Shown here: piece by piece, positions 14,838 through 26,381 of the stretch | Layout of the letters: the number at the start of each line of letters is the position of its first letter | Position numbering within the stretch: the stretch's first letter is position 1 | Source of the DNA: a virus | IMG/VR virus record: IMGVR_UViG_3300027970_000092 | Coordinates: 1 to 31,757 of that record | Length of the DNA stretch: 31,757 nt | Strand: one strand, 5' to 3' | Made by a program: the position numbers and the translations under genes | The notes under the pieces: generated by a model | What the model was told of the DNA's origin: nothing | The model's input: only the letters and a program-made list of their open reading frames with translations | Database searches by the model: none

Positions 14838-16617
14838 GAACCTCACAGCGAAAAACTTCATGAGCGTGGGCAACCACACGCAGGCGGTGAACTTTGACGG
14901 CAAGCATCTCGTTCTGGTGATCGGAGAGAACATGGACTTGGGTGGTGATGACGCAGGTGCCAGGAACGGCACAGGCAAGACCACCATAATCAATGCTATA
15001 AGTTATGTTTTCTTTGGTGAGGCGCTGACACAGATAAGGCGAGATAACCTGGTCAATAAAACCAACGCCAAGGACATGTTGGTCACTGTGAACTTTGAAA
15101 AGAATGGTGTGAACTACAAGATCGAGCGAGGCAGGAAGCCACAGGTGTTGAGATTTTACATCAATGAGGTGGAGCAGAACTCCGGTGCGGAAGGCACAGA
15201 GGACAACAACGAGGCGCAGGGAGAGAATCGCGAGACACAGGAAGAAATCAACAAGCTGATCGGCATGACTCATGCCATGTTCAAGAACATCATAGCCCTC
15301 AACACATACACGCTGCCGTTCCTGGCTACAAAACAAGCGGAACAGAGAGAGATCATAGAGCAACTGCTGGGCATAACTTTGCTGAGCGAAAAGGCAGAGC
15401 TGCTGAAAGAGCAGATGCGTGTGGCAAAGCTGGACCTGGCGGAAGAAAAAGTGCGACTGGACGCTGTCCTGGTCAGCAATAAGAAAGTGGAAGAGTCAAT
15501 AAAAACATTTGAATTGAGAAGCGCTGCATGGCAGACGCAAAAGAACACAGATATCGAAAAATTTGTGTCAGCAATAGAAGAATTGGAAAAGGTGGATATA
15601 CAAATAGAATTGGAAAACCATAAACGACTAGCCAAACACACAGATGATAGCAAAACCCTGAGGAATCTGGAAAAAGAGAAAAGCTATCACGAAGATTCTT
15701 TGACCAAGGCCACCAGACAGAAAGAACAAACTGTAAAAGATCTAGAGTATGCTGAACGGGCCACCTGTCCCACCTGTGAACAGGATCTACACGGAGAAAA
15801 ACATGAACATCTCGTGGATGAACTTCGAAAAGATCTTGCGGAACAGACCGAATATGAGCAAACACTGTCTGCGAAACTAAAAGATATACAAGACAGCATA
15901 ACAGCCATTGGCGATCTGGGCACTGTGCCTGACACATACTATGATTCAATCGATGAAGCATATAACCATAAAGGTTCCGTGGAAGATTTAAAAAGACAAT
16001 TGGAGCAAACTCGTGCAAAAGAAAACCCATATCAAGAGCAGATCGATGAGTTGAACAAAACGGCAGTGCAAAAAATAGATTATACCAGAGCTAATGAGAT
16101 GGAGGACCTATATCGACATCAAGAATTCTTGTACAAACTACTAACTGCCAAAGATTCTTTCATAAGGACCAGGATCATAGAACAAAACTTGACCTATCTC
16201 AACCAACGACTGGCATTCTATCTAACGCAGGTCAAGTTGCCGCACACAGTGGTGTTCTTATCTGACTTGAATGTGAGGATCGAAGAGCTAGGCAGAGAGT
16301 TGGATTTTGATAACTTGAGCAGAGGTGAGAGAAATCGATTGATACTGAGCCTGAGCTGGGCATTCCGTGATGTGTGGGAAGGTCTTTATCAACAGATCAA
16401 CTTGTTGTTCATTGATGAGTTGATAGATGCTGGCATGGACGTGTCTGGTGTGGAGAGCTCCATGGCAGTGTTGAAGGAGATGAGCCGGACGCAGAACAAG
16501 AACATATTCTTGATATCACACAAGGACGAGTTGGTAAGCAGAGTGAACTCGGTATTGAAGGTCGTGAAGGAGAACGGATTCACCAGCTACGCCAACGACG
16601 TTGACATTACTGCGTAG
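14824..16617 (+). CDS. gp46: Recombination nuclease ATPase subunit gp46 (Rad50/SbcC-like)
   Basis: The 597-residue protein has a Walker A loop GARNGTGKTT (residues 45-54), a Q-loop region near IIALNTYTLPFLATK, long coiled-coil arms, a zinc hook CPTC (Cys315, Cys318) at the turn of the coiled coil, an ABC signature LSRGERNR (about 497-504) and Walker B LLFIDELID. It pairs with gp47 to form the end-resecting complex. T4 gp46 is 560 residues. The gene ends in an 11-base tail-to-tail overlap with the minus-strand aminotransferase-like gene, so no terminator fits between them. Confidence 0.96.
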   Translation: MLTIRNLTAKNFMSVGNHTQAVNFDGKHLVLVIGENMDLGGDDAGARNGTGKTTIINAISYVFFGEALTQIRRDNLVNKTNAKDMLVTVNFEKNGVNYKIERGRKPQVLRFYINEVEQNSGAEGTEDNNEAQGENRETQEEINKLIGMTHAMFKNIIALNTYTLPFLATKQAEQREIIEQLLGITLLSEKAELLKEQMRVAKLDLAEEKVRLDAVLVSNKKVEESIKTFELRSAAWQTQKNTDIEKFVSAIEELEKVDIQIELENHKRLAKHTDDSKTLRNLEKEKSYHEDSLTKATRQKEQTVKDLEYAERATCPTCEQDLHGEKHEHLVDELRKDLAEQTEYEQTLSAKLKDIQDSITAIGDLGTVPDTYYDSIDEAYNHKGSVEDLKRQLEQTRAKENPYQEQIDELNKTAVQKIDYTRANEMEDLYRHQEFLYKLLTAKDSFIRTRIIEQNLTYLNQRLAFYLTQVKLPHTVVFLSDLNVRIEELGRELDFDNLSRGERNRLILSLSWAFRDVWEGLYQQINLLFIDELIDAGMDVSGVESSMAVLKEMSRTQNKNIFLISHKDELVSRVNSVLKVVKENGFTSYANDVDITA

Positions 16618-17419
16618 TTTCACTTAATAATTTTCCAATACCAAACAATTTGTTTGTGCCTTCTTCTCTTAAAACATGTATGCTATTGGTGGGGCGCAAG
16701 TTATATTTCTGCGCCAGCTCATTGTGTTTCTGCCCATGTGTGTTCCAGCCATAATCTTTGTCTAGGTTCTTCATTATGTAATAACCGCACGCTGTCAGGC
16801 TTTCATTGACCATGTCAAATTTGTTCAACATTGTGATGGAATCTATTGTTCTTTGCCTGGACCATCGCAATCCTATCCTGTTCCATGTAAGGTCGAGGCC
16901 CTTGGACATGCTCATTCCAAAACTTTTTATGCAAGGGTGATCAAAATCAAAATTCAGACCTCGGGCAGATTGGAACCAGCATCCGTCGATGTGAATATCA
17001 ATTTTTTTCTGTTCGCATTCTTTTAATATTTCGTCCCAGCGAGGATCTACGTCGCAATAACGCCAGGCAGGCACGCTGACCAGCAATGGCACTCCGGGCT
17101 GTAGTTCTCCAATGTTGGTGGGTCTCTTTCCCATGATAGAATAATATGCATATTCGCATGGCAGAATTTGTATTTTCCATGAATATTTCTGTATCAAGGA
17201 TTCTATGAAATTGGTGCATCCAATAATGATGTCCCTGCAAGGGAAGGCCTGCCACCCCGTCAAGTCGTTTAATTTTGTGGACTGGAACCATTCGTTGGCC
17301 ATCTCTATAAATTTTAATTTATGAGGATTGATCTGCTGCTGTGCAAACCAGTTTTCTTTCAACTTCTTTATGTAATTGTCACTTATTGGATACAATTTTT
17401 CCGTCAAATTATTGTTCAT
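16607..17419 (-). CDS. Compact fold-type I PLP enzyme, aminotransferase-like
   Basis: In the 270 residues I see the pattern of a fold-type I (aspartate aminotransferase-like) PLP enzyme: a GCTNFIESLI helix like the cofactor phosphate turn (residues 67-76), a CEYAYY strand, a VPAWRY segment, DGCWF with Asp145 as the likely pyridine-nitrogen partner, and SFGMSMSKG with Lys173 as the likely Schiff-base lysine, followed by NRIGLRWSR (Arg181, Arg185). Known family members are usually 350-430 residues, so this one is short, mainly at the C-terminal small domain. Its start overlaps the amidinotransferase stop by 11 bases, so they form one translation unit. Substrate and reaction are unknown: transamination, decarboxylation or elimination are all possible. 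The call rests on motif reading by eye. Confidence 0.62.
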   Translation of the reverse strand: MNNNLTEKLYPISDNYIKKLKENWFAQQQINPHKLKFIEMANEWFQSTKLNDLTGWQAFPCRDIIIGCTNFIESLIQKYSWKIQILPCEYAYYSIMGKRPTNIGELQPGVPLLVSVPAWRYCDVDPRWDEILKECEQKKIDIHIDGCWFQSARGLNFDFDHPCIKSFGMSMSKGLDLTWNRIGLRWSRQRTIDSITMLNKFDMVNESLTACGYYIMKNLDKDYGWNTHGQKHNELAQKYNLRPTNSIHVLREEGTNKLFGIGKLLSETTQ

Positions 17420-18449
17420 TCAATATATACACCCCCTTCTCACCTTTGTTGGGCCAATAGTCCAGCATGGGTCCTGCCCTGTAAACGTCCGAACTTAGGC
17501 AATGCAAGCCGCTGTCCCAAAAGTAACACATGTTGAAAGGCGTCACGTGCGGTGTCATTCCTATGCTCTTGAAGAAACTAAATGCTGATTCGTCCTCTTT
17601 TATTACCAAAATATTCTTTTCATCGATCAATATACAATTTACTGAAAAAATGGTCTCCCACGGATTGCCAAGCCATGACTCTGCCACTGACAGTATCTCA
17701 CTATTGTAGTTGGCGTAGTGTGCGCCTGGCAGCCACCACTTGAAGTTATGGCTGGGCACACGTGGTCTTTCTATAAGATAATGTACTTGCCAATCGGGAA
17801 AACTTTTGTCATATTGATTTTTGTAAATCGTTGACAGCAGCGCCCCCGGCTGCACGGGGCAAAATACTCCATCTGTGTGATCTCCTGTGTTGGTCACATT
17901 GACTCTATGAAATTTTGACAGTTCGGCGGCAACAGTCATCGTGTGTGCTTTGGCCTCGGCATTTTGTTCATCGTAGTCTATGTAAATGTCCATGCCCATC
18001 CTGGTGACCGCGGGAAAGTTGACCCAACTCATAGAATCCTTGGATCTGTCTAGTACCGCTACTTTCTGTCCGGCTTGTTTATATGAATCAATTGCGTGCT
18101 GGAACACCTCTATTCCGGAATAGTATTGCGGATTTATATATAATGTATCGTCTATGGTTATGGCCCAGTCTGCTGGTGCCATGGGCGGCTTAATTAATTT
18201 TCCTTGCCTGTCCAGATACTTGTCAATGGTGGGTTCGAACTGGGGCCTGACTACATTCACACCCAATTTCCGTAATGTATTGCAGATCCCATCCAGTTCC
18301 TTCTGCGTGTTTTCAGTAATTTGGCAGAAAACGTCCTCTGTCCTGGAATCAAACATTGAATAAAAATGCTGCGGATACGTGTCGCCGATCCAAATTTCTT
18401 TAAGAGGATGGATCTGTGAATAATTTTGTATATTTTGCAAAGTATTCAT
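17409..18449 (-). CDS. Amidinotransferase / guanidino-group-modifying enzyme
   Basis: The 346-residue protein has the layout of the glycine amidinotransferase branch of the guanidino-modifying superfamily: an N-terminal EIWIGDTYPQHFY segment, an ADWAITIDDTLYINP strand, a GDHTDGVFCPVQPGALLS block with His191, and a C-terminal WDSGLHCLSSDVYRAGP block with the expected nucleophile Cys317. The third acid residue is probably in MGMDIYIDYD (Asp154 or nearby). Enzymes of this family move the amidino group from arginine to an amine, or hydrolyse guanidino groups. The length is close to bacterial family members. One base separates it from the upstream oxygenase gene and it overlaps the downstream PLP gene. 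The true substrate cannot be read from the sequence. Confidence 0.8.
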   Translation of the reverse strand: MNTLQNIQNYSQIHPLKEIWIGDTYPQHFYSMFDSRTEDVFCQITENTQKELDGICNTLRKLGVNVVRPQFEPTIDKYLDRQGKLIKPPMAPADWAITIDDTLYINPQYYSGIEVFQHAIDSYKQAGQKVAVLDRSKDSMSWVNFPAVTRMGMDIYIDYDEQNAEAKAHTMTVAAELSKFHRVNVTNTGDHTDGVFCPVQPGALLSTIYKNQYDKSFPDWQVHYLIERPRVPSHNFKWWLPGAHYANYNSEILSVAESWLGNPWETIFSVNCILIDEKNILVIKEDESAFSFFKSIGMTPHVTPFNMCYFWDSGLHCLSSDVYRAGPMLDYWPNKGEKGVYILNEQ

Positions 18450-18450
18450 A

Positions 18451-19032
18451 TTATCTATATCTCATGAATATGCTTTTCCTCACTCCATCACGCACGGCAT
18501 ATTCGGTGGCGTGGAAACTTTTTAAATTGTTCAACAACGCATAGCCTGAATTTTTTTTGTAGTCAAAATTTACTAACCGCTTTCCTTTTCTCTCTATGTA
18601 GTTGTCATACAGCGCGGTGCCTGGCTGAGTGGAATCGTCAATGTAAATCTGCAGGCTGAGCTTGATCCTCTGATCATCTATGTGTGGATTCAGCGTGTAC
18701 CCTGGATGATCAAACCATATGTCCGCCTTATCTGGTGACAGTGCCTCAGAAAATTTCTCTTCCAGTGCATTGATTATTTTTTTATTTTGGAAAAAAATAT
18801 TCAATTCCTTGGAAATCTTTTCTGTGTATGACACCTTGCTGCGGAAAATTCTTATATCTGTGTCGTGTTGTTCCAATCCCTCGCATTTAAAATTTGTTTC
18901 ATCTAAATCTAATTTCTCAAGGAAGTGGTTATCAAAAAAATTACCGTACTGTTGGTAAAGCAAACCATCTAAATTTACCAAAGGTGATTTTTTTATTGAC
19001 TGGACCACGAAATCTACGCTATCATTGTACAT
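18451..19032 (-). CDS. 2-oxoglutarate/Fe(II)-dependent oxygenase
   Basis: The 193-residue protein carries the double-stranded beta-helix oxygenase signature: NPHIDD with His117 and Asp119 as iron ligands, a KLSLQIYIDD strand, PGTALYDN, then KSFHATE with distal His174 and VRKSIFMRY with Arg185 eleven residues later to hold 2-oxoglutarate. This spacing matches the prolyl-4-hydroxylase-like group, common in T4-like marine phages. It is first in a three-gene unit with the amidinotransferase and the PLP enzyme, which suggests a small-molecule or amino-acid substrate rather than DNA. No Shine-Dalgarno sequence is visible upstream of the ATG. A TTGACA hexamer lies about 40 bases upstream. Confidence 0.82.
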   Translation of the reverse strand: MYNDSVDFVVQSIKKSPLVNLDGLLYQQYGNFFDNHFLEKLDLDETNFKCEGLEQHDTDIRIFRSKVSYTEKISKELNIFFQNKKIINALEEKFSEALSPDKADIWFDHPGYTLNPHIDDQRIKLSLQIYIDDSTQPGTALYDNYIERKGKRLVNFDYKKNSGYALLNNLKSFHATEYAVRDGVRKSIFMRYR

Positions 19033-19047
19033 GTGTTAATTAATTAG

Positions 19048-19077
19048 CATCTAACAAAGGAGCATAAAAAATGTCAA
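19048..19077 (-). promoter_or_regulatory. Weak sigma70-type promoter candidate for the oxygenase operon
   Basis: On the minus strand TTGACA (19077-19072) is a perfect -35 hexamer, and 18 bases on is TAGATG, a poor -10. It would start transcription just ahead of the oxygenase gene. The -35 lies inside the first codons of the oppositely oriented Hc1-like gene. I found no TATAAATA box for this operon. Confidence 0.22.
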
Positions 19078-19262
19078 CTACACATGACTCGATAATGGCA
19101 GCCATTCAGACCTATTCTGAAGAGAACCAAAAATTCACTGAAAAGGGAATTAAGGCATCGGCTACAAGAGCTAGGAAAGCACTAGCAGAACTTGGCAAGC
19201 TGATCAAGGCAAGAAGAAAAGAGATACAAGAAACTAAGAACGCTGAAAAGAACGCAGCCTAA
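19071..19262 (+). CDS. Small Hc1-type histone-like protein
   Basis: The 63-residue protein is lysine-rich and predicted as two helices. Residues 23-54 (KFTEKGIKASATRARKALAE onward to IKARRKEIQE) match the pattern of the chlamydial histone H1-like Hc1 family, where a GNKAAxxRxRK core is followed by a basic helix. Such proteins bind DNA or RNA non-specifically. A strong AAAGGAG ribosome site lies nine bases before the ATG, so it is likely well expressed. It is the only plus-strand gene in this minus-strand accessory region, divergent from the oxygenase and convergent with the radical SAM gene. Small versions occur in marine T4-like phages as I recall; the role is unproven. Confidence 0.65.
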   Translation: MSTTHDSIMAAIQTYSEENQKFTEKGIKASATRARKALAELGKLIKARRKEIQETKNAEKNAA

Positions 19263-19273
19263 TTATTTTTTTC

Positions 19274-19303
19274 AAAAAACTCTGTGTGCTCGAGCACACA
19301 GAG
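19274..19303 (-). terminator. Rho-independent terminator of the radical SAM transcript
   Basis: A perfect 24-base palindrome (19280-19303, CTCTGTGTGCTC and its complement) is followed on the minus strand by six T residues (19279-19274). It begins eight bases after the radical SAM stop codon. On the plus strand the hairpin has no T-run after it, so it should stop minus-strand transcription and separate the radical SAM unit from the oxygenase operon. Confidence 0.88.
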
Positions 19304-19310
19304 TGGTATC

Positions 19311-20579
19311 CTAAAGTTCTACCAACCAAGGAAACACTTTCTTCCAATTTGTGTTTCGTCGCTCATCAAGTTTAGATAATATAACTTTTAAATTCTGAAT
19401 CTTTGCATTGTTCTTTTGCTTATCGCGAAAGGAATCCACTATGCCTCTCCAATACTTTTTTGTAGAAATCTCCCTGAGATTCTTTTCAGGCATCAGTTCC
19501 GTGCAATATTCCAACTGCTTATGAAAAAAATCCTGCCCCGCTATGGTCGGATCAAAGCTCTTTGAGTCGGTATTAAAACTGTGAATGATCCTGTTGGAAG
19601 ATCTGGTGCTGTTCCACACGTTTATTTGTTTCAATAATGAGTCAAAATAAGGCAGCGTCAATATCGTTATTGCGGAATTGATTCCCACCGTGATCTTATG
19701 GCATGCCAACAACTTTGCAAAATTTTTCTGCCATTTTTCGAGGCTCATGCCATAGCGCACATATTCGGTTTCGGTCGTCAGGCAATCTATGCTGGCTATC
19801 ACTTTGACGTTGTAAATTTTTTTCTTTTCTACCAGATTATTGATCTTCTCCAGGAATTGGTCAAATCTCTTCTCCTCACATTTGAGGTTGGTTATCAGCT
19901 GGAACGTGAGTGAATCATTGGGATGATCGTTCCAAAAATCCAAGCATTCGTCAAGTTCTGGGATAAGCAATGGTTCACCTCCCAGCAATGAAAACCATCT
20001 CAGTTTTTTGTATCTTTCGTCTTGCTTTAAATATTTCCAAAAGTCCTGTTTCTGCTTGTCGTAATTGGGATTGTGTTGTTCCTCGTTCACGTCGCCCACT
20101 CCTGTGGAATCCAATTCGGAAATTTTGCTATGTTTTTTATTTTCTTCCTGCCACTTGGAACTGAAATGTGGTCCACAGTACACACAGCTCATGTTGCATG
20201 TGTTCTTGAAATACACTTCCAACATGGTTGGCGTCACATGCACCGCGGATGCATCGTTGGCCAATTCGGGGGCATTTAGATTGATGTCCGTCTGCTGAGA
20301 TAATTGGTGCATTCTATCGCTGAATCCGCCTGTGTCTTCAACTTTTTTACAGTAGTTGCAATCATTTGATGGCCATTCCCCCTGTAACATCTTGTTCCTG
20401 TCGTCTATCTTCTTGGGTACATTGTGGAACGATCCGAAATCATCCACGGGAATCATGTGCTTCTGTGTGCGGTGACACGAGCTGGTGGTGCCGCTTTGGA
20501 AAAAGATATTGCTCCATCCCCACTTCAGAAGGCATGCAGTTTTGGTGTTTATGGGAAAGAGTTGTTTTTTGCCGGACAT
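19311..20579 (-). CDS. Radical SAM protein, twitch-type
   Basis: I take the start at 20579 (MSGKKQLFPINTK), which gives 422 residues and leaves eight bases after the upstream stop; a start at 20675 would overlap that gene by about 90 bases with a non-conserved-looking leader. CNMSCVYC (Cys128, Cys132, Cys135) is the CX3CX2C site for the radical SAM 4Fe-4S cluster, and LLGGEPLL is the SAM-binding GGEP motif. The N-terminal part has TACLLKW and SSCHR plus CNYCKK, additional cysteines that resemble an auxiliary-cluster or twitch arrangement. Related proteins modify peptides or sugars; no precursor peptide is obvious beside it. It ends just before a strong terminator. The reaction is unknown. Confidence 0.8.
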   Translation of the reverse strand: MSGKKQLFPINTKTACLLKWGWSNIFFQSGTTSSCHRTQKHMIPVDDFGSFHNVPKKIDDRNKMLQGEWPSNDCNYCKKVEDTGGFSDRMHQLSQQTDINLNAPELANDASAVHVTPTMLEVYFKNTCNMSCVYCGPHFSSKWQEENKKHSKISELDSTGVGDVNEEQHNPNYDKQKQDFWKYLKQDERYKKLRWFSLLGGEPLLIPELDECLDFWNDHPNDSLTFQLITNLKCEEKRFDQFLEKINNLVEKKKIYNVKVIASIDCLTTETEYVRYGMSLEKWQKNFAKLLACHKITVGINSAITILTLPYFDSLLKQINVWNSTRSSNRIIHSFNTDSKSFDPTIAGQDFFHKQLEYCTELMPEKNLREISTKKYWRGIVDSFRDKQKNNAKIQNLKVILSKLDERRNTNWKKVFPWLVEL

Positions 20580-20586
20580 GCAATAT

Positions 20587-20844
20587 TTAGGCTGTAAACC
20601 ATCTCCTGGCCACTGGTGTTGAGTGCGTGAGGCACCACATGGTCCATTCCTCGTCGGTGAACTTGGCCCGCACAATTATGCTGTCGGAAGCGAACTCCAG
20701 ATCACATAAATTTTTAAGGTAAAGGTCATGCACGTGGGGAAAGTGCGACAACCATCCCTCGAACAATATCTGCGCCTGGAATGCATCGTCATATTTGCCA
20801 TGTGTTTTTAATTCACCCACGATTCTCAATGTGCGCTGTGTCAT
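20587..20844 (-). CDS. Small conserved-looking protein of unknown function
   Basis: I place the start at 20844, giving 85 residues (MTQRTLRIVGELKTHGKYDD onward), because this ATG overlaps the stop of the GIY-YIG-type gene as ATGA. A longer frame to 20979 would lie inside that gene and its extra residues are a low-complexity antisense-type read. The protein has a helix with KYDDAFQAQILFEGW and an acidic end with FTDEEWTMWCLTHS. I do not recognise the family. It is translationally coupled to the nuclease-like gene upstream and lies eight bases before the radical SAM gene. Confidence 0.6.
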   Translation of the reverse strand: MTQRTLRIVGELKTHGKYDDAFQAQILFEGWLSHFPHVHDLYLKNLCDLEFASDSIIVRAKFTDEEWTMWCLTHSTPVARRWFTA

Positions 20845-21296
20845 GCTTGCCTGTCTATTATCAGCGATCCATGCACACGCACACGGATGTGTCCATTGTA
20901 GTACATGTCGGATTCCAACACCTTCCTCGCGAACTGTTCCCTGGCCTCCACGTAGTTCAATTCTGCCTTGCTGCGGCAATAGTAAAGTATCTCTCTACGA
21001 AATCGATCTTTGCCTAAAGTTTCTATATCTCTGTTCAATTGATCACTGCTGCCGTAGTAATCCTGCCAGCCGCTGTCCGCCGCGCCTCTTATTTTTTTGC
21101 GCACTTTTTTTCCGTTTTTTTGCGTGTGCATTTTATATCGCGTGGTCTTGAATTTGCTCAGCTTCTTGCCCACGTACATGCGCCCTGACACCGTGTTGGT
21201 GATCAGATACACGAAGCCGGCGCAGTCCGCTGGTAATTCAGAAACTGGCTGATTGTTGTGGATCCACTGCATATTGGTATTTAAACTCACGAACAT
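20841..21296 (-). CDS. GIY-YIG-type nuclease-like protein
   Basis: The 151-residue protein begins its core with AGFVYLITNTVSGRMYVGKK (residues 26-45), where GFVYLI and YVGKK correspond to the GIY and YIG strands. A DYYGSSDQLNRDIETLG segment and ELNYVEAREQFARKV with a candidate catalytic Glu follow, ending in VRVHGS. This matches small GIY-YIG proteins of T4-like phages that are often called homing-endonuclease-like. It lacks an obvious C-terminal DNA-binding repeat, so it may be a stand-alone nuclease and not a homing enzyme. The start could also be Met9 (21272). A TATAAT box lies about 20 bases upstream of the first ATG. Confidence 0.68.
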   Translation of the reverse strand: MFVSLNTNMQWIHNNQPVSELPADCAGFVYLITNTVSGRMYVGKKLSKFKTTRYKMHTQKNGKKVRKKIRGAADSGWQDYYGSSDQLNRDIETLGKDRFRREILYYCRSKAELNYVEAREQFARKVLESDMYYNGHIRVRVHGSLIIDRQA

Positions 21297-21768: not shown

Positions 21769-22518
21769 ATGGAACTGATATTCGATCACATCACGGGCAA
21801 GCAGGAGCAGCAGGATTTGCAATATTTCCGATTGCGAGGATTCCTGGACGGCAACGAAGAGGACGATCCCCTGGATCAGGGCTGGCTGGCGGACGACACG
21901 CCGCACCAGGGCCAGGAGTGCTGGTACCAGTCGCGCAGCACACGCATAGAGCTCAGGCCCGGCCTGATAAAAAAACCGCGCAAAAGAGAAGTGCGCGGGC
22001 AGCGCATCGAGATGCTGGAGATACGCCCCGTGGACAGCATGCTCAAGCTGACCGGCATGGAGAGGCTGTACCACGACTTCCTGGCCAAGAAGGGCTATCG
22101 CGACCTCTACAACCCCATGACGCACATACACCAGCGAGACAGCTTCCTGATCTACTACATCGACGACGTCAGCCACATGATCGGCTTCACCAAGATCAAG
22201 AAATACCTCTGGCAGGAGGACGTGCATGACGAGCAGTTCGAGGACGGCCAACTCAGCGCCATTGAGACCCACATGCACTGCTCCGCCGAGGAGATAGGCA
22301 TGATATCGCTGGAGATGGAGATCGAGTGGGCCGCGGGCAAGAACTGCCGATACCTGTACCTGGGGCCGGGCTATGAGAAGAGCTCCATCTACAAGAGCTC
22401 CATCCCAGGGTTCCAGTGGTGGACCGGGCAGAAGTGGAGCAAGAACGTGGAGCAGTACAAGCAGGCCTGCACCAGAGACAGCGAGATCGTCAGGATCTCT
22501 GACCTAGGCGCCAGGTGA
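21769..22518 (+). CDS. GNAT/aminoacyl-transferase-like protein
   Basis: The 249-residue protein has a C-terminal half (residues about 120-225) that looks like the acyltransferase fold of arginyl-tRNA protein transferases and related GNAT proteins: DSFLIYYIDDVSHMIGFTKI strand pair, ISLEMEIEWAAGKNCRYLYL, then GPGYEKSSIYKSSIPGFQWW. The N-terminal half has DQGWLADD and LRPGLIKKPRKREVRGQRI, which I do not recognise. No Shine-Dalgarno sequence is visible, and a TTTAAATA box lies only seven bases from the ATG. It ends in a 29-base tail-to-tail overlap with the next gene. A donor (acetyl-CoA or aminoacyl-tRNA) cannot be chosen from the sequence. Confidence 0.5.
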   Translation: MELIFDHITGKQEQQDLQYFRLRGFLDGNEEDDPLDQGWLADDTPHQGQECWYQSRSTRIELRPGLIKKPRKREVRGQRIEMLEIRPVDSMLKLTGMERLYHDFLAKKGYRDLYNPMTHIHQRDSFLIYYIDDVSHMIGFTKIKKYLWQEDVHDEQFEDGQLSAIETHMHCSAEEIGMISLEMEIEWAAGKNCRYLYLGPGYEKSSIYKSSIPGFQWWTGQKWSKNVEQYKQACTRDSEIVRISDLGAR

Positions 22519-22990
22519 CCACGTCCGCGATGTTCTTCTTGGACCACTGATCGTAGTAGCCCTTCTTCTTTAATATTTCTGAGAATCGATTCAGCGTGCT
22601 GAGACGCTGGCACAATAATAAAGTGTAGCGACCATTGTTGACGACCACCCCATTGATCTCTTCCCTTTGCCTGGGATGGTCCTCCAACACCACCACGTCC
22701 CTGGGCATGAACACGGAGTTCAGCTGGTCCACGATGTCGTGTGTGTAATTTAGACTCCATCTCTTGGCCTCCAGTATCAGCACCAGTGCATCAATTTTGT
22801 CAAAATCAGTGTTGCCGATGTGCTGCCAGCAGTTGCTGTCCGGTTCCGCGGAGGTCATGTGTATCATTCTCACTCGCCCAGACAGTCTAGCCTGGCGGGC
22901 GTAGGGGCACGGCGGCAGGCCCGCGAACACAGGGTGCTCCTGTTCAACGAACTGCTCCATCCAGCGTGTGATGTATTCTGTGGCTTGCAT
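22490..22990 (-). CDS. Conserved-looking phage protein of unknown function
   Basis: The 166-residue protein starts one base after the upstream small gene (stop 22992-22994). It has GLPPCPYARQARLSG (residues about 24-38), which is reminiscent of the LCPFA motif of DUF1415-type proteins, then a KIDALVLILEAKRWSL strand-helix and a FMPRDVVVLEDHP segment. There is no signal peptide or membrane helix. Its position after the gp26-like and small hub-assembly genes suggests co-transcription with late genes. I do not know its role. Confidence 0.6.
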   Translation of the reverse strand: MQATEYITRWMEQFVEQEHPVFAGLPPCPYARQARLSGRVRMIHMTSAEPDSNCWQHIGNTDFDKIDALVLILEAKRWSLNYTHDIVDQLNSVFMPRDVVVLEDHPRQREEINGVVVNNGRYTLLLCQRLSTLNRFSEILKKKGYYDQWSKKNIADVVTWRLGQRS

Positions 22991-22991
22991 G

Positions 22992-23168
22992 TTAAAAGAA
23001 TGGCTGCCCCGTCTTCTTGGTGGTCTCCAGGTTGTCCTTGACTATGTCTGACACTATGCCCCTCTCCACCGAGCTCATGTGCAGGGCCTCTTGGTACGTC
23101 ACGCCCCCGCGCATGTACCAGCAGATCTTGAACAGCTCGTGCTTGATGCTCTTGCCCTCGTTCTCCAT
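22992..23168 (-). CDS. Small tail/hub assembly protein, candidate -1 frameshift extension of the gp26-like gene
   Basis: From the ATG at 23168 this frame gives 58 residues (MENEGKSIKHELFKICWYMR, then GGVTYQEALHMSSVERG, ending TTKKTGQPFF). The same frame is open upstream to 23240, through LLTLSDSDIIKYLKD, which reads as protein and overlaps the end of the gp26-like gene in the -1 frame. The RGGxxYxxAxxMSxxER pattern resembles the short gp51-like or tail-assembly-chaperone proteins of marine T4-like phages. It may be made alone, or as a C-terminal extension of about 76 residues on the gp26-like protein through the slippery run at 23222-23231. The next gene starts one base after its stop. Confidence 0.65.
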   Translation of the reverse strand: MENEGKSIKHELFKICWYMRGGVTYQEALHMSSVERGIVSDIVKDNLETTKKTGQPFF

Positions 23169-23215
23169 GTCCTTGAGGTATTTTATGATGTCAGAATCCG
23201 AGAGTGTGAGTAGTT

Positions 23216-24073
23216 TTATACGAAAAAATTTGCGTTGTCAAACGTGATGGGCACGTCGTAGCTGACCGGAGCGCCGGCCTTGATCTGTTCCTCCGTGGCC
23301 TTGACCTTGACCGGTTTCATTGCGCCCTGTTGCCTGATTTCCGCGAGCCTGGTCTCCAGTTCCTTGATCAACTTGGCGTCGGCGTTTTGGATAAACTGCT
23401 TGATGTGCTCCTTGTCTGCGACCGACTCACCAGTGGGCAGCTGGATGCGTGCAATGTTGCCCAACAGCAGCTCCATGTTAAGGTCACTCAGCACTCGGAA
23501 GCCATCCATGAATCTCTTGGTCTTTTCCTCCGCGGTCATCTCGCTCTGGGCCACCTGCGAATATATCTTTTGCTGCTCGAATGTCTTCAGCTGCGACTGC
23601 GTGATCTGCCTATAGGTGAGCGGGCTGACCTGTATCGTCAGGCCGTCCTTCAGCACGCAGGTGTCCGTGATGTCATCCCTGCGAATGTTGTCCAGCACCT
23701 GGGGCAGGTTGATGGTGTGCGTCATTGATTCATTGGTCACTGGCACGGTCGCCGTGACGTCCATGGTCTCACCGTAGCTGGCGATCCTGATGGCTATGAG
23801 AACCGTGTCCACGTCGTAATTCACCAACTGCCATGGATCCAATATGGTTGGTATGCAACTGCGTATCACATCCACTGTGCTCTGCCCGCTCATCATGCTG
23901 TCAGGCGTGCGGAAACTCAGCTCATCTATGGCGGTCATGGGCAAAACAGGATGCTCACCTGTCACGGTCTTTTGCACCACCGTCTCCGGATAATATTTCT
24001 GCTTGCTGGGCAACTGTATGCTGATCTGTGGCTGCCTGTAGTAGCGTTTTAAAGGATTTGTGTTGTCTGCCAT
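23216..24073 (-). CDS. gp26: Baseplate hub protein gp26-like (T4 baseplate family)
   Basis: The 285-residue protein has the order of elements I associate with the T4 gp26 baseplate family: a QLPSKQKYY start, LPMTAIDELSFRTPDSMMSG (residues about 44-63), VIRSCIPTILDPWQLVNYDV, and TVLIAIRIASYGETMDVTA. In T4, gp26 is a hub component or assembly factor of 208 residues. Here a C-terminal helical part of about 100 residues is added, and the gene ends in a slippery run that could join it to the next frame. An exact late promoter lies 44 bases upstream of the ATG. The tape-measure-like gene is transcribed divergently from the same gap. Confidence 0.75.
   Translation of the reverse strand: MADNTNPLKRYYRQPQISIQLPSKQKYYPETVVQKTVTGEHPVLPMTAIDELSFRTPDSMMSGQSTVDVIRSCIPTILDPWQLVNYDVDTVLIAIRIASYGETMDVTATVPVTNESMTHTINLPQVLDNIRRDDITDTCVLKDGLTIQVSPLTYRQITQSQLKTFEQQKIYSQVAQSEMTAEEKTKRFMDGFRVLSDLNMELLLGNIARIQLPTGESVADKEHIKQFIQNADAKLIKELETRLAEIRQQGAMKPVKVKATEEQIKAGAPVSYDVPITFDNANFFV
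23222..23231 (-). other. Candidate -1 ribosomal frameshift site
   Basis: Read on the minus strand in the gp26-like frame, the sequence is gcA AAT TTT TTC. It contains two overlapping X XXY YYZ heptamers, A AAT TTT and T TTT TTC. The zero frame ends two codons later (GTA TAA), while the -1 frame stays open for about 76 codons. The layout is the same as the conserved frameshift in tail assembly chaperone genes upstream of tape-measure genes in many tailed phages. Confidence 0.5.
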
Positions 24074-24152: not shown

Positions 24153-26381
24153 ATGGCCGACGAAACTTTAGAAGCACTCAAGGAACTGCTAGAAGCTTCC
24201 AAAAAAGCTGGTAACAGGAAAGATGGCTCATTAAAACAGGGCGAGCTCACTCCCTTGATAAAAGCGCTGCAACAAGCAGCGTCATCCTCAGAGCTGAAAA
24301 GATTAAACCAACAGTACAGAGAGGCCATAAAAAATTCAAAGCTCAGCGCAAAAGCAGAAACGGCAGCCCTTAAAGCCCTCGAGGATTCCACGGAGCAGCA
24401 GGAAAAATTAATAAAGGCCAGCACAGATCTAAACGAGAAATTGTATGCGTTGGCCAAAGAGACCGGACTCAACGTAGTCCAGTCACAGCGTCTAGCGGAC
24501 CGAGCAGTTGAAACCAGAAAAGTACTGGGAGACCTGGGCAAGGCCGCGGGCGAGGGCACGGGCAAAATAAGTGACTTCACTGCAGCATTCAAGGGCAAGT
24601 TTGGCGGGATCGGAGACATCGTCGTCGGCGCCGGCGAACGCCTGCAGGCCAATGTGGACACGTTCAGGACACTGAGCAACGTGGGCGCGGCGTTTGGACA
24701 GGACCTAGTGAAACTGCGTGAAGCGGCCGCCATGGCGGGACTGCCCATCGAGGACTTCACCGAGCTGATCAAAGAAAATGCCCAGGGACTGTCCCAGCTC
24801 TATGGCACGACCACCCAGGGAGCGCTGACGTTCTCAAGGCTCTCACGCAGCTTCAGGGACCTCAACTCCAAGCAGCTGATGCCGCTGGGCTTCACCACAA
24901 AGCAGCTGAACGAGGCGCTGCTGACCTCGCAAGAGATACAGCGATTGACCGGCACGCTTAATCTCGATGACACTTATTCACAGATGGAGGCCGGCAAGGC
25001 ATTGGTGTTGGAGATCGACAAGTTGGCCAAAGCCACTGGAATGCAGCGAGATGAGGTGCAGAAGGCACTGAAGGCACAGCTGAGCCAGACCACATTCCTG
25101 GCATTCATGCAAGGACAGACCGAAGAAACGAGATTGAGGTTGCAATCATTTGCCACCACGATAGACAGCGTGGCGCCAGAATTTAAAACGGGGCTGCTGG
25201 ACCTCATAGCCAGCCAGGGCGTGCCGGTAACCAAGGCAGCAGAGGACCTGGTATTGAACCTTCGAGGATCTGGCCAAATAGTTAGGCAGCTGACGTCCGG
25301 ACAGATAGACGCAGCCACCGCAGTTGGCATGATGCAGGATGAGGCCAGGAAAAGCGTCACCACATTCAGAGACGTGGCCAAGGTGGGCGTGGTGCCATTC
25401 GTAAACAATTTGTATGGAGGCTCGGTCAAACTGGCATCCGCACAGAATAAACTTATTGGGGCAACCGACGAGCAACGCCAGAAGGCCTCAGATCTCACAG
25501 AAGGACTCACGGGATTCGAGAAGTCCGCCAAGGAGGTCAGCGCAGCGTTCCAGAGCCTGGAGACCGGATTTTTAGGAGTCATTGGAGACACATTTGGCAA
25601 AGGACTAGGGGGACTGAACGCCGGGTTGAGCAGCGTGGCCAGTGGCATAACGAATATGAACAACGCCAGCAAGGCGCTGCTGTATTCCGCTACCAGCATC
25701 GGCAGTTATGTGTTGGACAAAGTCACACAGTCAGCGGTGGTGTTCGCGGGCACCTACAAGGCATTGGTGTTGTCGGGCGTAGGAAAAGCGGGCGGATTCA
25801 GTGCCGCGGCCACAGACTTGATGGGCGGCAAGGACAGCAAATACAGCAAGGCAGGCAGCGCGGCCATGAAAAACACACCCAAGGCATTGAAATTTGGGGC
25901 CGGAGCCATAGCCACCAGCCTGGCAGCACAGGCAGTGGGCACAGACAACATAGTTGGCAAGGGACTGGACGTGGCCGGATACGCACTCACCGGTGCCACG
26001 ATAGGCTCAATTATACCAGGGATAGGCACAGGACTGGGTGCCGCAATAGGCACAGGACTGGGTCTTTACCAAAATTCACGTGCCACGGGCACCATGGGCG
26101 AGCTGGGCAAGCCATTTGAACCCAAGACCAGCCTGCTCAAGGTGCATGCGGGAGAGCGGGTGCTTAATCCTGCAGAAACACAGGAATACAACCAGGACAA
26201 GCCAGACGCAGCGCAGTCGCAGCGCATGCTGGAATTCACGCAGACCACCAAACAGCTACTGGAAGCACAAAAGATGACCAACGAGCTATTAAATAAGCAA
26301 GTAGCCATACAGATGGCCACTGAGAAGAATACCAAAAAAACATCCAAAATGGTTGATAAAGTGGGCTCTTCTATTGTATAA
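24153..26381 (+). CDS. Tape-measure-like tail protein
   Basis: I start at 24153 (MADETLEALKELLEASKKAG) because an AGGGG site lies 11 bases upstream and the longer frame from 24108 reads through the promoter region. The 742 residues are largely alpha-helical with Ala/Gln/Lys-rich heptads at both ends. A hydrophobic Gly/Ala segment lies near residues 590-645 (ALTGATIGSIIPGIGTGLGA and neighbours), a usual sign of tape-measure proteins. The sequence ends with EPKTSLLKVHAGERVLNP, a motif seen in tail tape-measure C-termini. In T4 the equivalent is gp29 (590 residues), which sets tail length. Position opposite the chaperone-like gene pair fits this call. I see no lysozyme or peptidase domain. Confidence 0.7.
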   Translation: MADETLEALKELLEASKKAGNRKDGSLKQGELTPLIKALQQAASSSELKRLNQQYREAIKNSKLSAKAETAALKALEDSTEQQEKLIKASTDLNEKLYALAKETGLNVVQSQRLADRAVETRKVLGDLGKAAGEGTGKISDFTAAFKGKFGGIGDIVVGAGERLQANVDTFRTLSNVGAAFGQDLVKLREAAAMAGLPIEDFTELIKENAQGLSQLYGTTTQGALTFSRLSRSFRDLNSKQLMPLGFTTKQLNEALLTSQEIQRLTGTLNLDDTYSQMEAGKALVLEIDKLAKATGMQRDEVQKALKAQLSQTTFLAFMQGQTEETRLRLQSFATTIDSVAPEFKTGLLDLIASQGVPVTKAAEDLVLNLRGSGQIVRQLTSGQIDAATAVGMMQDEARKSVTTFRDVAKVGVVPFVNNLYGGSVKLASAQNKLIGATDEQRQKASDLTEGLTGFEKSAKEVSAAFQSLETGFLGVIGDTFGKGLGGLNAGLSSVASGITNMNNASKALLYSATSIGSYVLDKVTQSAVVFAGTYKALVLSGVGKAGGFSAAATDLMGGKDSKYSKAGSAAMKNTPKALKFGAGAIATSLAAQAVGTDNIVGKGLDVAGYALTGATIGSIIPGIGTGLGAAIGTGLGLYQNSRATGTMGELGKPFEPKTSLLKVHAGERVLNPAETQEYNQDKPDAAQSQRMLEFTQTTKQLLEAQKMTNELLNKQVAIQMATEKNTKKTSKMVDKVGSSIV

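Follow-up and report, generated by a model that had tools for sequence, protein, structure and literature searches.

One gene of a giant T4-related bacterial virus apparently yields a helper protein for tail building in two versions. In the window, which is the whole stretch of 31,757 nucleotides analyzed from the IMG/VR record IMGVR_UViG_3300027970_000092, a gp26-like gene very probably contains a site of programmed -1 frameshifting at T_TTT_TTC, where a minor fusion protein of 360 aa (TAC-NC) would be produced beside the 285-aa short form (TAC-N). A -1 frameshift joining gp26-like and gp51-like parts had been proposed in a sequence-only reading of the window, and it is supported by the invariance of the slip run, the coding constraint in the -1 frame and start codons that are not fixed among relatives.

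Reading frames at the end of the gp26-like gene

The gp26-like CDS, the TAC-N candidate, lies on the minus strand at 23216..24073 and encodes 285 aa. Its product matches PF12322 (T4_baseplate; Pfam E 2.5e-10) with 40.9 bits, which is above the gathering cut-off of 24.5, and phrog_150 (baseplate hub; PHROG E 3.2e-14), and its AlphaFold2 model has a mean pLDDT of 84. The gene ends with GCA AAT TTT TTC GTA TAA, where the stop codon is at 23218-23216. The slippery run AAATTTTTTC (23222..23231, minus strand) contains two overlapping heptamers, A_AAT_TTT (23231-23225) and T_TTT_TTC (23228-23222), both in the correct phase of the gp26-like frame.

After a closure at 23240-23238, the -1 frame remains open until the stop at 22994-22992. 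Past the slip it has 76 sense codons (23222-22995), including the segments WYMRGGVTY and KTGQPFF, and this C-terminal domain of 76 aa plus stop (22992..23222, minus strand) is the gp51-like or TAC-C candidate. The two heptamers and the open frame of about 76 codons containing RGGVTY and KTGQPFF had been described from the letters alone, and direct reading and counting found both descriptions accurate. The predicted fusion (22992..24073, minus strand), as deduced from the conserved -1 frame and the position of the slip, would consist of 284 aa up to FF followed by the 76 aa RIKLLT...QPFF. Because both routes read N-F-F-R, the fusion product ...DNANFFRIKLLT... is identical from either heptamer.

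In-frame heptamers of the X XXY YYZ type are common in the window (41 across 25 genes), so the motif alone is weak evidence, and only one other heptamer, in the gene at 21769-22518, opens into a -1 frame of at least 70 codons. It is the comparison with relatives, not the motif itself, that decides the case.

Conservation of the slip run and constraint on the -1 frame

A scan of IMG/VR with gp26 gave 68 loci, 67 of which have both sides of the slip present. All of the 67 carry [GT]CA AAT TTT TTC with the 0-frame stop no more than two codons further on, and their -1 frame extends for about 76 codons, being shorter only at contig ends. Dereplication left 50 loci with less than 90% nucleotide identity, for which the median pairwise nucleotide identity was 60%. 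In the gp26 alignment of these 50 loci, 50 columns are invariant in amino acid, 47 of them with synonymous choices, and the codon never changes in exactly three of the 47, namely AAT, TTT and TTC of the slip. The other Phe codons of gp26 are divided between TTC (200) and TTT (171), and an invariant Phe a few residues ahead of the slip is encoded by TTT in 38 loci and by TTC in 12. At the level of codon usage, the comparison showed that the slip run is under nucleotide-level selection beyond amino-acid conservation.

The second scan, for which the -1 domain alone was the query, gave 80 viral loci and seven contigs filed under bacterial or archaeal genomes, and TTTTTTC stands immediately 5' in register in all 87 loci; it is also present in 63/63 loci once these are dereplicated by the T-coding stretch without the slip. 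The contigs with the phage locus (L186-L192) that are binned in bacterial or archaeal MAGs, such as those of Pacearchaeota and Neomarinimicrobiota, are probably mis-binned phage contigs. None of the plasmids searched for the T domain carries it. An alignment of very distant gp26 proteins was also tried as a scan query and proved too divergent for a database scan.

The tblastn search with gp26 reached the jumbo T4-like phages (PA5oct, Atu_ph07, Phosso, RaK2, 121Q, BF and others) at about 25-32% identity, and the same search with the -1 domain gave matches in Atu_ph07 and Phosso that begin at its first residue and lie in the -1 frame of gp26. T TTT TTC is found at the end of gp26 in 8/8 isolated jumbo-phage genomes, where a similar -1-frame protein always continues. 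Over these eight phages, the residue before FF varies (H, H, S, S, R, H, Y and D) and the 0-frame stop is located 1 to 12 codons past the slip. The element conserved in distant relatives is T_TTT_TTC, A_AAT_TTT is largely limited to the lineage of the window, and T_TTT_TTC (23228-23222) is most likely the operative heptamer.

The run expected by chance from the local codon usage amounts to about 0.065 per independent locus, and the run was kept in 67/67, 87/87 and, among the marine cyanophage-type loci described below, 80/80 loci. Its conservation among relatives is far beyond chance. Such a comparison of relatives had been proposed with the sequence-only reading, which also named a disrupted run with both frames persisting as the observation that would speak against a frameshift; relatives of this kind were looked for and none was found.

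In the region of the -1 codons 4-17, which is past the gp26 stop and ahead of the first ATG of the window, the diversity was 0.298, 0.134 and 0.499 at codon positions 1, 2 and 3, respectively, and the same position pattern was obtained for the -1 codons 18-76. The frame is free of stops in all loci. This pattern of substitutions showed protein-coding selection acting on the -1 frame from the slip onward. The comparison also showed a -1 frame without a conserved start codon, as far as the aligned loci tell: there is no ATG, GTG or TTG near the slip in 8/50 dereplicated loci, and the remaining loci do not agree in start position. In Phosso and Atu_ph07 the gp26 stop is overlapped by an ATG; 121Q, BF and KVP40 have TAATG, and in the window ATA takes the place of the ATG. 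AlphaFold2 predicted the -1 domain to be a helical hairpin with a mean pLDDT of 91.6, which supports a real folded domain.

Relationship to gp51 and alternative explanations

The combination of T_TTT_TTC and a gp51-like -1 part after gp26 is found in 80/80 marine cyanophage-type loci and in KVP40, S13, ZPAH1 and OLIVR5. The run is broken in T4, Moon, KP179, IME08, ECD7, Ac42 and phiP4-3, where gene 51 is separate and divergent; the broken forms are TTC TTT, TTC CTT, TTA TTT or no pair, even with FF retained. T4 gp51 comprises the full PF12322 domain and a C-terminal extension, so that it represents a long form with a gene of its own. The -1 domain of cyanophages and KVP40 was aligned by hhalign with the C-terminus of T4 gp51 at a probability of 95.6%, and the KVP40 record itself remarks on the similarity of its small ORF to this C-terminus. 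The -1 domain of the window gave a weak match to that of cyanophages (P ~7e-5 over 35 columns). The gp51-like character claimed in the sequence-only reading thus holds for the cyanophage and KVP40 domain, but for the window's own domain the gp51 link, as far as profile alignment goes, is supported but weak.

Two further observations were made on T4-like genomes. The pelagiphage HTVC008M has AGT TTT TTT TAA on the minus strand (T8, containing T_TTT_TTT), which is still slippery, and transcriptional slippage is also conceivable there. In the record of Citrobacter phage Moon (L177, 1-98), gene 27/28 is covered by a joined feature named 'GT-like fusion protein; T4 gp28-like', which is another frameshift proposal for a T4-like hub operon.

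It is improbable that the -1 ORF is a separate gene expressed by termination-reinitiation at the gp26 stop, for which the start in the window would be either the ATA overlapping the TAA (23217..23219) or the ATG 18 codons in (23166..23168). The junction ATG of several isolates (Phosso, 121Q, BF and KVP40) could start a separate small protein, several of the isolates with such an ATG annotate the -1 ORF as a separate gene, and many cyanophages have an ATG 4 codons past the slip. However, the start is conserved neither in position nor in codon, as is evident from the 8/50 dereplicated loci with none, and the 12 cyanophage-type loci without a junction ATG still keep the run. In the window, no ATG, GTG or TTG precedes the ATG at 23168-23166, the 19th codon past the slip, which could give only a 58-aa peptide and is an ATG in only 24/50 dereplicated relatives. 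A Shine-Dalgarno sequence is absent upstream (0/50 loci). Reinitiation leaves the codon-invariant slip run unexplained, and the phages that have lost the run are precisely those with a separate gene 51.

An RNA polymerase slipping on T6, by which part of the mRNAs would be frame-shifted, would be consistent with the conserved homopolymer and with the T8 of HTVC008M. Transcriptional slippage usually requires longer runs, and nearly all loci have exactly six T followed by C in a strict codon phase, which slippage would not need; this explanation is very unlikely. The least probable explanation of all is that FF is conserved for the sake of the protein alone and that the -1 ORF is open by chance or has decayed. 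The gp26 residues that never vary include FF, which T4 gp26 also keeps, but all frameshift-type loci encode it as TTT TTC preceded by T, compared with TTC TTT in T4, and the stop-free -1 frame shows coding-type constraint across its 76 codons.

A possible but doubtful extension of the frameshift reading is that both routes operate in parallel in part of the clade. There, TAC-NC would come from frameshifting and a free gp51-like subunit from coupled initiation at the ATG that overlaps the stop, for which the window has ATA. The split arrangement of T4 would then have arisen from a frameshift ancestor via dual-route intermediates.

Proposed mechanism, neighboring genes and known systems

According to the frameshift reading, the gene would encode a tail assembly chaperone (TAC), and its phage would be a T4-like myovirus with jumbo-phage relatives. 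Translation would mostly end at the gp26-like TAA, releasing TAC-N (285 aa). On U_UUU_UUC, where tRNA-Phe occupies both the P and the A site, a minority of the ribosomes would slip back by one base to pair with UUU UUU and then read CGU AUA AAA..., adding the helical gp51-like C-terminal domain to give TAC-NC (360 aa). In analogy with gpG/gpGT of lambda, many TAC-N and few TAC-NC molecules would form a coat on the tape measure protein and bring in the tail tube or hub; this likeness is the ground on which a chaperone role of the two forms is suggested.

Slippage itself and its efficiency are inferred from the sequence, and the level would be low to moderate. A stem-loop stimulator downstream of the slip was sought in the 50 loci and gave a mean z of 0.01, compared with 0.03 for the control; the alifold consensus of the loci, computed for nested structures only, was empty. 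A Shine-Dalgarno-like motif upstream of the slip was found in 0/50 loci. As neither a stimulatory structure nor such a motif was found, the slip efficiency may be low. A stimulatory element is common but not universal in -1 frameshifting and was not treated as a defining feature.

Sequence and fold searches of the PDB gave no credible relative of gp26 among the solved structures, so its TAC fold is a putative one; a PDB sequence search with the T domain gave no credible relative either. In a viral fold library, the matches of gp26 were to baseplate hub assembly proteins of T4-like phages and, at a weak E of 0.018, to the tail assembly chaperone of an Arthrobacter phage, and the T domain had weak matches to a tape measure chaperone (E 2.5) and gp51 (E 3.6). 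In the PA5oct record, the neighbors of gp26 are marked as seen by ESI-MS/MS and gp26 is not, which is only suggestive of its absence from the virion.

The gene next to gp26, at 24153..26381 on the plus strand, is divergent from it and encodes 742 aa. In the order gp26 - 742-aa gene - gp20 portal, it stands where RaK2 and PA5oct have their tape-measure-like gene. The sequence-only reading had called this neighbor tape-measure-like. Its position, its size and a weak BLASTP match to the Phosso neighbor point to that identity, but Pfam lends it no support, as neither a tape-measure model nor any other Pfam model matches the protein. Elsewhere on the minus strand, the gene at 22490-22990, directly downstream of the -1 domain, matches PHROG 28122, a family without an assigned function (E 6e-13), and the one at 20841-21296 encodes a SegE-type GIY-YIG homing endonuclease (PF19835, E 3.3e-32). 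Four adjoining genes at 16607-20675 have no Pfam match at 1e-3; the product of 19311-20675 contains the radical-SAM-like motif CNMSCVYC (CxxxCxxC), suggesting that the stretch may be a small modification pathway.

Vladimirov, Gautam and Davidson are said to have described, in 2022, frameshifting conserved in several T4-like groups, with T4 using the separate genes 26 and 51. The wording of the sequence-only reading, that such a frameshift was not known to be established for T4-like gp26, has to be corrected in this respect, since the core idea is already published. As cited in PMC10885494 and PMC12846349, tail assembly chaperone genes of T4-like phages were identified in that work (Virology 2022, 566:9-15), and PMC12846349, citing it, treats it as known that the TAC-N genes of such phages have poly-T slippery sites. 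G-T frameshifting is widespread with T4 excepted (PMC5009743), and PMC3004832 names gp26 and gp51 of T4 among the chaperones of hub assembly.

The T4-like gp26/gp51 system, to the extent that it is presented in the citing papers, shares with the window the PF12322 N domain and the poly-T slip at the end of TAC-N; the C-terminal domain of the window is gp51-like only by the weak match given above. T4 differs in making the two forms from separate divergent genes, and the lineage of the window is a distant, jumbo-related one with about 30% identity to Atu_ph07. In the cyanophages (P-SSM2 and S-PM2), KVP40, S13 and ZPAH1, T_TTT_TTC at the end of gp26 and the -1 gp51-like ORF are alike; however, their shorter gp51 part is often presented in annotations as a gene of its own that starts at an ATG, and a co-directional gene follows. 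The likeness to lambda gpG/gpGT and the wider G/GT genes of long-tailed phages, where a small domain is added by a -1 frameshift shortly before the short form ends and tail-assembly genes lie near the tape measure gene, is one of layout. The lambda slip is G_GGA_AAG compared with U_UUU_UUC in the window, and in lambda-type loci the tape measure gene directly follows G/GT in the same orientation, whereas the neighbor in the window is divergent. The TAC locus of the Pakpunavirus Adele (PMC12846349) also has a conserved -1 frameshift inferred from alignment and a poly-T motif, but it belongs to the family Vandenendeviridae and its motif is GTTTTT.

No report of such a frameshift was found in the open literature for RaK2-, PA5oct- or Atu_ph07-like phages. 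In their GenBank entries the -1 domain is separate, truncated or missing: only its last 40 codons are annotated in Atu_ph07 (L001 6109-6231), and none of it is annotated downstream of gp26 in PA5oct and RaK2. The frameshift would explain why annotations of these phages have missed the domain, truncated it or left it hypothetical.

The addition to what is published for other T4-like phages is unusually clean sequence evidence from an uncharacterized environmental lineage. Phages whose gp26 is followed by a gp51-like domain in the -1 frame have the run and those with a stand-alone gene 51 have lost it, which constitutes a natural experiment, and this pattern makes the evolution from a frameshifted to a split tail chaperone in T4-like phages directly testable.
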